The notes under the pieces are model-generated. The model ran no database searches. It was not told the DNA's origin and saw only the letters and a list, made by a program, of their open reading frames with translations. This document shows positions 4,257 to 8,445 of a stretch of DNA of 64,000 nt, piece by piece (the stretch's first letter is position 1; each line of letters opens with the position of its first letter). The translations under genes were made by a program, and so were the position numbers. This stretch comes from Sulfurimonas sp. HSL-3221 (GTDB lineage Bacteria > Campylobacterota > Campylobacteria > Campylobacterales > Sulfurimonadaceae). The stretch lies in assembly GCF_021044585.1 (NCBI RefSeq), contig NZ_CP087998.1, positions 930,001 through 994,000 on the forward strand, given 5' to 3'.

Positions 4257-4539
4257 AGCCAACCTCCTTGAGGAGACCGGCAGCGCCATTGTTACCCGCA
4301 AAGGAATAGGCCTGCGGTTTCTGTTCAGCATGCTGATGGTCTTCGGGATCGTCTGGATGCTGCTCTTCCCGAAGATCTACCTTCAAAACAGCATCTACTA
4401 CAAAAGCCGCGACATTGCGACGATGCAGCGCGAATACGAGACGCTCAAAGAGGAGAACCTCGTCATCAAGCGGCGGGTGGAGGCGCTGAAGTTCAAAAAC
4501 CAGGTGCTCGACACCCTCTTTGTCGAGGAGCAGCCGTGA
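4246..4539 (+). CDS. FtsL-like single-pass membrane protein
   Basis: The 97-residue product has a short cytoplasmic tail, one membrane segment (about residues 23-43, FLFSMLMVFGIVWMLLF) and a C-terminal periplasmic coiled coil rich in K/E/R heptads (MQREYETLKEENLVIKRRVEAL). This architecture and the position directly after rsmH are those of the cell-division protein FtsL in many bacteria. Sequence conservation of FtsL is low, so the call rests on topology and synteny. It overlaps rsmH by 11 bp and the following RND gene by 4 bp. Confidence 0.6.
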   Translation: MDDKANLLEETGSAIVTRKGIGLRFLFSMLMVFGIVWMLLFPKIYLQNSIYYKSRDIATMQREYETLKEENLVIKRRVEALKFKNQVLDTLFVEEQP

Positions 4540-7500
4540 TCGCACGCCTCATCGAGTTCGCGCTGAACAAACCGCTGCTCAACCACATGCTGCTGCTGTT
4601 CGTGCTGCTCCTCTCCGTCTTCGCCTACCTTAACATTCCCAAAGAGATCTTCCCGCCGATCCAGATGGACAAGATCACGATCACCGGAGGCTACGCCGGG
4701 GCGAGCGCGGATGTCCTGGATAAAATGGTCGTCACCACGATCGAGGACGAGCTGGGGAATATCAGCGAACTGGAGACGGTGACGACGACGATCAAAAACG
4801 GCGCGTTCACCATCACGGCCGACATCAAGCCGGGATCGCAGAACATCAACGTGCTCAACGACGTCAAGGATATCATCGCCCAGACGAAGCGGGACCTCCC
4901 TTCGGACATGAACGAACCCATCGCGCAGATCCATGAAGAGACGATCCCGCTGGTGCTGGTGGCCATCGCCGGTGAGGCGCCCATGACCGAACTCCTTGCG
5001 CGCGCCGATGAGCTCAAAAGCGCGCTGTCGCGCTACAAGGAGCTCAGCGACATTACGATCCGGGGCGATTCCGACGACGAACTCGTCTTCCGCATCGATC
5101 CGGACAAACTGGACGCCTACGGCCTCTCCACCGACGCCGTGGTCGCAGCGCTGCAGAATCTCAGTTCCATTTTTCCCGTCGGCACCATCAAGCGGCGGGG
5201 CGAACACCTTTACATCAGCACCTACAACGGCGAAAAAGATGAAACGGCGATCGAGAATACGGTTATCGGCGTCGGCGGCAAGCGGGTGAAAATCGGCCAG
5301 ATCGCTACGGCCACCTTCGAGCTGGGCGACGCGACGGAGCTGTCGCACTACAATGGGGTTCGCAACGTCTCCGTCAACATCACCAAGTCAAAATCGGGCA
5401 ACGCCATCGCCCTGGCCAAACAGATCCGCGAAACCCTCAAGGGCTTCGAAAAACGCTACCCGGACCTGCAGTTCGCGGTCTACACCGACACTTCGGTCTG
5501 GATCAAGAACCGTCTCAATACGGTCGTCTCCAACATCATCGTCGGGCTGATTCTCGTCTTCGCCGCCATGCTTATCTTCGTCAACCGCGGCATCGCGCTC
5601 GTCGTGGCGATGGGGATCCCGATGAGTTTCATGATCGGGCTGATCGCGACGGAGATGATCGGCTATTCGCTCAACATGCTCTCCCTGCTCGGCGCCCTGA
5701 TCGCCCTGGGGATGCTCGTCGACGAAGCGATCGTCGTGGCGGAGAACATCTACCGCCACATGGAGGAGGGGATGCCACGGCGTCAGGCGGCGATCCAGGG
5801 GGCGGTGGAGATGTTCCCCGCCGTGCTGACGGCGACGCTGACGACGGTTTTTGCCTTTTTGCCGATGCTGCTGATCAGCGGGGAGATGGGGACTTTTATC
5901 AAGATCCTGCCCGTGATGATCACCATTTTGCTGCTCAGCTCCCTCTTCGAAGCCTTCTTCTTCCTGCCGCTGCATGCGCACGAACTGCTGCGCCTGCGCC
6001 GGGAGAGCCATGTCAGCCACAGTATCTGGGAACACCTCTACCGCTGGTACGACAAAACGCTGCACCTCCTTTTCCGCCGCCGCAAACGCTCCCTTTTCCT
6101 GATCGTCGGCACCATCGCTGCGTTGACGGCGGTGATGGTGTCGCAGAGCCGTTTTCAGCTTTTCCCGCCCTTCGACGTGACCCAGGTCTACGTGACGGGG
6201 AAGGTCAATATCAACAACGAGCTCGAAGATACGGAGCAGAGGGTTGCGGCCATCGAGCGGATGTTGCTGGAGAAGCTTGACCCCGAAGAGTACTCCTCGG
6301 TGACGGCGGTGATCGGGATGCGTCTGGATGCGAAGAACAAGGCGGAAATCGGCGAGAACCTCTTCCAGGTCTTCATCGACCTGCACGAACGCGCACCGGA
6401 TAACTGGTACAACCGATATATCAATCCCATCTTCTCGATCGAATATAACGCCGACGTGCTCAAACGGCAGCGTGATGCCAAGCGGATCAGCGAAGACGTC
6501 AAACAGTGGCTCGAACCGCTCGCCCAACGCACGGAAGATGACGGGACCAAGACCTTCGAGAACTTCAACGTTACCGTCCCGGGAACGGGGGTCGTCGCGC
6601 ACGATATCGAGCTCGCGCTCGAGGGCAAGGATGATGCGGAGCTGGCGATGGGCGTGAAAGTGCTGGAAGCAGCCCTAGCCGACGTGACGGGGGTCTATAA
6701 CATTTCCGATGATGCCGATCTCGGGGAGCGGGAGCTGAAACTGCGCATCAACGACTACGGTTACGACCTGGGGCTTACCGAGGCGGATATCAGCCGTCAG
6801 CTGCGCGCCCACTACCTCAAAGGCGAATACGGCAAGATGTTCAGTGCCAGCGGCCTGGTCCGCATCCGCATCGAGAGTGTGCAGAAAGATGACCCCGAGA
6901 GTCTGGAGACCTTCCGCATCCAGATCCCGGGCAGCACGCAGACCGTTGCCCTGCGCGACGTCGCCGACTTCATCTATACGCAGGCTTATGTGACGATCGA
7001 AAAGGAGGACGGTACGCGTATCCGCAGCGTCTATGCGTCGCTGGACAAGGATATTCGGACATCGTCGGAGGTGATGGCGGCGATCGCACCGACGCTGGAA
7101 GGGCTCAGGAAAGAGGGCTTTGATATCGAGATCAAGGGGGAGGAGAAGGAGAACGCCAAGACGCAGCGGGAGATGTCCCAGGCGGCGGCCGTCGCGATCT
7201 TCCTGATCTTTATTACCCTCGTATGGCTGTTCGACTCGCTGGTACTGGCGCTGATCGTGCTCAGCACGATCCCCCTTGTCCTTGTCGGTGTCTATGTCGG
7301 CCACTGGGTGATGGGCCTCACCATTACGATGCCGAGTCTGATCGGGGCCGTGGGGCTGGCGGGGGTCGTCGTGAACGACGGCCTGATCATGGTGAGTTTT
7401 ATCCGGCAGGCCAGGGACAGCGAAGCGTTGATGCGGCGGGCGCGGACCCGCCTGCGGCCGATCCTGATGACGTCGATCACGACGGTACTCGGGCTCATGA

Positions 7501-7643
7501 CGCTGATCTTTTTCGCTTCGGGTCAGGCACAGATACTGCAGCCGATGGCGGTGTCGCTGGGATACGGGATATTATGGGCAACGGTACTGAACTTGTTCTA
7601 TGTACCGTTGCTTTATGCCGTCATCTACCGTATCAAACGGTAG
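4536..7643 (+). CDS. RND-family efflux transporter permease (AcrB/MdtBC type)
   Basis: The 1035-residue protein has the two-fold RND plan: a membrane helix at the N-terminus, a large periplasmic loop, a block of membrane helices including the conserved GMLVDEAIVVAENIYRHMEEG region (helix 4, proton relay acidic residue), then a second loop and a second membrane block with GVVVNDGLIMV. It starts with GTG overlapping the stop of the FtsL-like gene (GTGA). No adaptor or TolC gene is adjacent, so its partners must be encoded elsewhere. Substrate cannot be told from sequence; this family covers drugs, bile salts and metal-independent organic export. Confidence 0.92.
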   Translation: MIARLIEFALNKPLLNHMLLLFVLLLSVFAYLNIPKEIFPPIQMDKITITGGYAGASADVLDKMVVTTIEDELGNISELETVTTTIKNGAFTITADIKPGSQNINVLNDVKDIIAQTKRDLPSDMNEPIAQIHEETIPLVLVAIAGEAPMTELLARADELKSALSRYKELSDITIRGDSDDELVFRIDPDKLDAYGLSTDAVVAALQNLSSIFPVGTIKRRGEHLYISTYNGEKDETAIENTVIGVGGKRVKIGQIATATFELGDATELSHYNGVRNVSVNITKSKSGNAIALAKQIRETLKGFEKRYPDLQFAVYTDTSVWIKNRLNTVVSNIIVGLILVFAAMLIFVNRGIALVVAMGIPMSFMIGLIATEMIGYSLNMLSLLGALIALGMLVDEAIVVAENIYRHMEEGMPRRQAAIQGAVEMFPAVLTATLTTVFAFLPMLLISGEMGTFIKILPVMITILLLSSLFEAFFFLPLHAHELLRLRRESHVSHSIWEHLYRWYDKTLHLLFRRRKRSLFLIVGTIAALTAVMVSQSRFQLFPPFDVTQVYVTGKVNINNELEDTEQRVAAIERMLLEKLDPEEYSSVTAVIGMRLDAKNKAEIGENLFQVFIDLHERAPDNWYNRYINPIFSIEYNADVLKRQRDAKRISEDVKQWLEPLAQRTEDDGTKTFENFNVTVPGTGVVAHDIELALEGKDDAELAMGVKVLEAALADVTGVYNISDDADLGERELKLRINDYGYDLGLTEADISRQLRAHYLKGEYGKMFSASGLVRIRIESVQKDDPESLETFRIQIPGSTQTVALRDVADFIYTQAYVTIEKEDGTRIRSVYASLDKDIRTSSEVMAAIAPTLEGLRKEGFDIEIKGEEKENAKTQREMSQAAAVAIFLIFITLVWLFDSLVLALIVLSTIPLVLVGVYVGHWVMGLTITMPSLIGAVGLAGVVVNDGLIMVSFIRQARDSEALMRRARTRLRPILMTSITTVLGLMTLIFFASGQAQILQPMAVSLGYGILWATVLNLFYVPLLYAVIYRIKR

Positions 7644-7683
7644 CGACGCGCTTTGAAATGAGAGGAGAAAAGGAAGTGCGGTA

Positions 7684-7709
7684 GGGAAGGAAGCCGACAC
7701 TTCCCTCCC
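7684..7709 (-). terminator. Strong 10-bp hairpin, possible terminator
   Basis: The arms GGGAAGGAAG (7684-7693) and CTTCCCTCCC (7700-7709) form a stem with one G-U pair and a 6-base loop. On the minus strand it is followed within about 10 bases by a pyrimidine-rich run (CTTCCTTTTCTCC), so it could end the riboswitch transcript read leftwards. On the plus strand it follows the RND gene by 40 bp and could stop that mRNA, although no T tract follows on that side. Confidence 0.5.
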
Positions 7710-7885
7710 TGTGATTAAACGGACACTCAAAATCATACAGACCTGCCGTCCGCACAGACGTCAGCGTCCGTATGATGGCATCAGGTTGAGTAGTAAGGAG
7801 TGTACCGTCACCTTATGTTGAACCGAGAATTGTGTGCTAATTAGTAGAGCGTGTGCAAGACACTCGAGGAGTAGAAGACCTTAGT

Positions 7886-7969
7886 TTATGTTTAGGCAAC
7901 CCGGCCGTCTCAGTGAGACCCGTGGCTTTCCGTCCCCGTTTCGCAACGAGTTTGGCATTATCTACATAA
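7886..7969 (-). promoter_or_regulatory. Cyclic-di-GMP-I (GEMM) riboswitch aptamer
   Basis: On the minus strand this 84-nt element shows the GEMM core in order. A P1 stem is formed by TTATGT and ACATAA. Next come GCCAAA and a hairpin CTCGTT-GCGA-AACGGG, in which GCGA is the GNRA tetraloop used for docking. Then GGGACGGAAAGCC and the P3 stem GTCTC/GAGAC lead to the terminal GGCCGGGTTGCC, which matches the conserved 3' strand. The AAAGCCACGGGTC...GACGGCCGGGTTGCC wording closely resembles Geobacter GEMM sequences. The base equivalent to Vc2 G20, which selects c-di-GMP against cGAMP, is not certain here because of a one-base alignment ambiguity. There is no protein gene downstream on this strand before the RND 3' end. 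Confidence 0.82.
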
Positions 7970-8124
7970 TTAAGCAACAACAGATTGTTATAAGTTACAG
8001 CTTACAGTTCCATTAAAATATGATTTTTTTCTAGCTTTATTTTTTTATCGGATCGTAAAGTAGCGATTGGCAAAGTCCGGACGGTGATTATGAGTTGAGG
8101 AGATGCACTTAAGCCCAAAAGGGG

Positions 8125-8157: not shown

Positions 8158-8445
8158 ATGTACGAAGCACTTTTCGAAGACGAAGGCGATATGTTCAGCG
8201 GATCGCCTCGCAGTAAATTCATGGACGTTATCTTCAATGCTAACCGTTCGGTCGCCGAAGGGGAGCTCCAGCGCCTGATCGAGCGCCTGGCCGCAATGGA
8301 AAAAATCCTCTCAGAGTCGATGGACGATGCGACGCTCGAACGGACGATCAAACAGCTTCAGTTCGAGGAAGCGGATGCGATCAACGCGATGGCGAAGGAG
8401 CTCTATATCGAGTCGATGGGCAACGTGCTCAGCCAGAGCGAATAG
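8158..8445 (+). CDS. DUF2018 family acidic protein (HP0242-like)
   Basis: The 95-residue acidic, all-helical protein is recognised by its gene context and composition as the Campylobacterota-specific DUF2018 family. Its H. pylori member HP0242 sits beside the same polyprenyl synthase, hemA, proS and hemC genes, and has been studied as an intertwined (knotted) helical dimer. Visible features are the SKFMDVIFNANR segment and long helices rich in E and A with no cysteine. The biological role is unknown. The next gene starts 15 bp downstream after GGGGGAAGA. Confidence 0.75.
   Translation: MYEALFEDEGDMFSGSPRSKFMDVIFNANRSVAEGELQRLIERLAAMEKILSESMDDATLERTIKQLQFEEADAINAMAKELYIESMGNVLSQSE

Follow-up and report, generated by a model that had tools for sequence, protein, structure and literature searches.

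A c-di-GMP-I riboswitch with no protein gene behind it probably yields a c-di-GMP-responsive non-coding RNA in Sulfurimonas

Introduction

A c-di-GMP-I riboswitch on the minus strand of the window analysed here (the whole 64 kb stretch of DNA) probably yields a c-di-GMP-responsive non-coding RNA, of which few examples are known, since no protein gene follows that it could control, and relatives carry the element in nearly unchanged form. Four features read from the DNA carry this conclusion: the aptamer, the absence of a gene, the conservation and the hairpins of the minus strand. Our judgement leans, at slightly better than even, towards a stand-alone minus-strand RNA gene whose c-di-GMP aptamer sets the fold of a small RNA acting at a distance from the locus. 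Below we set this interpretation against four others: an antisense-acting riboswitch, a store of c-di-GMP, a regulator of a very small peptide and the relic of a riboswitch that lost its gene.

The aptamer and its predicted ligand

Searching the whole window against Rfam 15 with cmscan gave a single match above the gathering score, to RF03167 (c-di-GMP-I-GGC) at 7891–7965 on the minus strand, which spans the full model length (1–80) and scores 67.2 bits against a gathering score of 59 (E 1e-13). The original prediction, a complete aptamer core on the minus strand at 7886–7969, is borne out by this full-length match and was right to within 5 nt. The Infernal check against RF01051 (clan CL00126) proposed with it likewise returned a significant GEMM match, with 63.5 bits where the gathering score is 35. 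The c-di-GMP-I aptamer so delimited by RF03167 and RF01051 comprises P2, P3, a GNRA-type loop and the contact residues. In the RF03167 alignment, numbered after Vc2 (PMC3764141), G20, A47, C92, the G14-C93 pair and A95 are all present; as read from the alignment these are the canonical c-di-GMP contacts, and c-di-GMP is the predicted ligand.

The name GGC led us to expect a G in that variant at model position 37, the position of A47. The aptamer has an A where the GGC model has G and does not conform to the variant on this count, and for this reason we file it as c-di-GMP-I. Riboswitches of the cGAMP type of GEMM-I carry an A at position 20. The aptamer has a G there, so cGAMP is not expected as its ligand and a cGAMP-type identity was rejected.

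Absence of a protein gene after the aptamer

In the direction of read-out the next gene is a convergent RND efflux pump gene on the plus strand (4536–7643; PF00873 ACR_tran, 481 bits). Because its stop codon at 7643 lies on the opposite strand, 248 nt past the aptamer, the read-out heads towards the 3′ end of RND, as had been foreseen. At this stop codon the window also holds a hairpin (7598–7650; CUACCGUUUGAUACGGUAG on the minus strand) whose pairing, as read from the alignment, is kept between lineages via paired changes at synonymous positions, and which is a possible 3′-end structure of the RND mRNA. On the other side of the riboswitch a DUF2018 gene (8158–8445, plus strand; PF09442, 101.6 bits) diverges from the riboswitch RNA and has, as read from the sequence, its own TATAAT-like promoter near 8124.

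The claim that no protein gene follows the riboswitch also stands. Comparison of the minus-strand frames of G000 with those of its orthologs revealed no ORF conserved as protein downstream of the aptamer: the frames of 47, 54 and 40 aa are interrupted or missing in the orthologs, and a downstream protein gene was rejected on these grounds. The tail contains no tRNA, tmRNA or other Rfam RNA. The only frame common to four genomes (G000, G004, G005 and G007) is a GTG frame of 16–17 codons at ~7807. Control by the riboswitch of a tiny peptide encoded here is highly improbable: the frame is kept in these four genomes, with a 3-nt indel inside it, but it has no Shine-Dalgarno site at proper spacing, its synonymous positions are invariant, as in non-coding sequence, its last codons change amino acids and it is absent from G003.

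Our survey of c-di-GMP-I aptamers in 228 genomes of the family examined 116 distinct loci, comprising four instances of this cassette, two that end at a contig edge and 110 others. A same-strand ORF lies within ~300 nt downstream of about 104 of these 110 aptamers in a mechanical ORF count that includes the first copies of tandem aptamers. L020 and L099 were considered as gene-less and rejected, a sense gene lying at 53–80 nt in both. In another genus of the family, three aptamers (L155, L156 and L158, in G157, G213 and G176) lie 360–470 nt upstream of rpsB; the interval contains no ORF and includes a TATAAT-like box belonging to rpsB, and the three may form another set of gene-less c-di-GMP-I RNAs that arose independently. 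Further possible cases are L172 (G186), which is separated from a threonine-synthase-like gene downstream by 285 nt free of ORFs, and L177 (G015:C56), a weaker aptamer match (38 bits) opposite a convergent gene that has a CxxCH motif of the cytochrome c type. Elsewhere in the family, G010 carries seven c-di-GMP-I aptamers and G031 two tandem aptamer pairs, mostly before secreted-looking proteins (loci L003, L010, L021 and L022), and at L007 (G001:C149) a degenerate aptamer precedes an intact one, directly upstream of a small ORF whose product looks secreted.

Conservation and origin of the cassette

Five genomes of the genus (G000, G004, G005, G007 and G003) carry the cassette, always at the junction of RND and DUF2018. 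G003 lacks ~130–150 nt, among them hairpin 1 and the greater part of hairpin 2 (described below), apparently through a deletion between two CAAC copies visible in the alignment. In G001, of the same genus, and in four other genera, RND adjoins DUF2018 at a distance of ~85–200 nt without an aptamer, which suggests that the cassette was most likely gained beside an older RND/DUF2018 pair. No plasmid or phage matches to the cassette were found, and such an origin was rejected. Apart from matches at the level of the aptamer and a weak one of 36 nt, no second copy of the tail turned up elsewhere in the family, and an exact 25-base scan of genome contigs, in a collection that may omit near relatives, found only the G003 contig (MAG JACXUG010000031.1).

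The comparison of G000 with G007, two lineages on which the conservation argument in effect rests, shows a difference at 1 of 230 aligned sites, with a few indels, from 8009 to 7780 (promoter, aptamer and ~110 nt beyond), against 34.5% of the fourfold-degenerate sites of the flanking genes. This disparity argues for purifying selection on the riboswitch part and against a relic. The aptamer itself is invariant between lineages except for one inserted base, and 20 of 72 sites (28%) are changed in the adjoining hairpin-1 stretch. Conservation extends also to the DUF2018 promoter side of the intergenic region (3 of 85 sites changed) and to the sequence adjoining the RND stop (2 of 30). A relic left after loss of the controlled gene would suit the observation that nearly all aptamers of the family precede a gene, and the hairpins have been lost in G003, but selection from promoter to tail beside sequence that has diverged by 28% leaves this origin with very little probability.

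Putative promoter, predicted switch and conserved tail

Promoter, transcription and switch are predictions throughout. A putative promoter region (7985–8058, minus strand), read from the sequence, consists of upstream A-tracts and a TATAAC −10-like box at 7992–7987, and 8009–7985 shows zero substitutions between lineages; we call it putative because a sigma-70 consensus scan found no promoter at 7985–8058. The predicted transcription start is estimated to lie near 7980 on the minus strand.

In predicted folds, the 5′ leader (7961–7982, minus strand) pairs either with the 3′ strand of P1 (UUAUGU/ACAUAA) or with the anti-P1 arm (UCUACUAAUUAGCACACAA; 7830–7848, minus strand). In the absence of ligand, the anti-P1 fold is predicted to be favoured over the P1 fold by ~7 kcal/mol; binding of the ligand could make up this difference. 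The leader-arm complementarity is marginal against shuffles (95 of 2000), for which reason we treat the P1/anti-P1 switch as a prediction, and the anti-P1 helix has no support from covariation, because its arms do not vary; no substitution separates G000 from G007 between 7890 and 7826. The conserved non-coding tail as a whole (7780–7890, minus strand) is substituted at 1 of 111 aligned sites between these genomes and carries indels of 1, 3 and 3 nt.

We now return to the stand-alone RNA gene and to how it might work. Transcription leftwards on the minus strand from ~7980 would make a free-standing RNA, with the canonical c-di-GMP-I aptamer as its 5′ half and a conserved structured non-coding RNA as its 3′ half (to ~7730 or ~7675). 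Without c-di-GMP, the 5′ leader would pair with the arm ~115 nt downstream (anti-P1) and exclude P1; with c-di-GMP, P1 would form and the arm 7848–7830 would be released. By this exchange the ligand would set the fold, and perhaps the length, of the small RNA, which, we infer, may act in trans on other RNAs or on protein. A search for trans targets by extended complementarity gave no other site for one segment and control-level matches only for the other.

An abundant RNA that solely binds c-di-GMP, a sponge or store of the kind proposed for merRNA, would share the make-up of that RNA, a c-di-GMP aptamer in a gene-less transcript, and the AT-rich upstream tracts could drive strong expression. 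The ~110 conserved nt past the aptamer exceed what a sponge needs, however, and we regard this role as improbable.

Hairpins and the 3′ end

Two hairpins follow the tail on the minus strand. Hairpin 1 (7732–7776) is terminator-like, overlaps the only terminator-like site found and is followed by UUUU in G000 and G004; its pairing is kept at 8 of 11 pairs, in one case by a change on both sides and in three by A-U/G-U exchanges. Hairpin 2 (7683–7710; 11–12 bp), a second possible 3′ end, keeps its pairing through one G-U/G-C change and has no U-run directly after it. With what amounts to only two lineages, the shuffle controls on this pairing are weak. Where one strand has a G-U pair, the other has a mismatch. 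Both hairpins are more stable on the minus than on the plus strand in both lineages, in four of four comparisons (−25.4 vs −20.7, −21.2 vs −9.6, −20.8 vs −15.4 and −22.6 vs −21.1 kcal/mol), which points to a minus-strand RNA. No clear intrinsic terminator is common to all orthologs; with a predicted 3′ end at ~7730 or ~7675, the RNA is estimated at 250–310 nt.

The position of these hairpins bears on the antisense alternative, in which c-di-GMP would set whether minus-strand transcription stops at the hairpins or continues into the RND gene, where RNA pairing or polymerase collision would reduce its expression. The riboswitch is convergent with RND and 248 nt from its stop codon, inside the 500-nt limit of a published survey in which c-di-GMP riboswitches were the most enriched antisense family (PMC9943018); the sequence beside the stop is among the conserved stretches, and no obvious RND terminator was seen by eye on the plus strand. 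Nevertheless, the strictly conserved part does not reach into RND, ending ~137 nt before its stop codon, RND beside DUF2018 predates the cassette and occurs without it, and two hairpins able to end the RNA precede RND. We consider this route, including any effect on RND by way of its 3′ UTR, unlikely, though the least so of the alternatives. The original prediction, which had left the controlled product as either an RNA or an antisense to the RND tail, is supported in part: its first half gains from the missing ORF, the five-genome conservation and the kept minus-strand hairpins, and its second half loses by the position of the conserved part.

Comparison with known systems

To our knowledge, riboswitches driving non-coding RNA have rarely been described, and our literature search found no report of c-di-GMP riboswitches in Sulfurimonas or Epsilonproteobacteria. 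Within the same genome, the ordinary c-di-GMP-I riboswitch L002 shares aptamer class and core sequence with the cassette but has behind it, at a distance of 144 nt, the start of an ORF of at least 452 aa, whereas the cassette has none.

AspocR and a SAM riboswitch of Clostridium acetobutylicum are antisense-acting riboswitches (PMC9943018; PMC6794450) and, like them, the cassette is directed at the 3′ end of a gene that converges on it; in those systems, however, the antisense RNA covers or demonstrably regulates the opposing gene, and the cassette has no conserved coding overlap. In Listeria, Rli55 and SreA/SreB are riboswitch-controlled non-coding RNAs that act in trans (PMC6794450). The cassette resembles them as a riboswitch that would control a non-coding RNA, but their ligands are vitamin B12 or SAM rather than the predicted c-di-GMP, SreA and SreB are terminated mRNA leaders, and the targets (EutV, prfA) are known (PMC6794450). 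That the cassette founds a new family of c-di-GMP-controlled, trans-acting small RNAs in a genus of Campylobacterales, in which c-di-GMP binding toggles the RNA between two folds, and was gained beside an older RND, is a tentative proposal that we hold as possible rather than probable.

A close parallel is merRNA of Bdellovibrio, a c-di-GMP riboswitch within a 445 nt non-coding RNA that is massively expressed in attack phase and was reported not to be conserved outside Bdellovibrio (PMC3627812). Like merRNA, the cassette would place a c-di-GMP riboswitch in a non-coding RNA that lacks a conserved ORF after it; it differs in its shorter estimated length and in its occurrence in Campylobacterales. 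If this is true, the cassette, with orthologs in several relatives, would be an instance conserved outside Bdellovibrio, would show that c-di-GMP can act as a signal via RNA alone and would open the proposed sponge, trans and antisense roles to testing in another phylum. On our analysis, the best reading of the cassette is as a further member of a rare known kind, the gene-less c-di-GMP riboswitch RNA.
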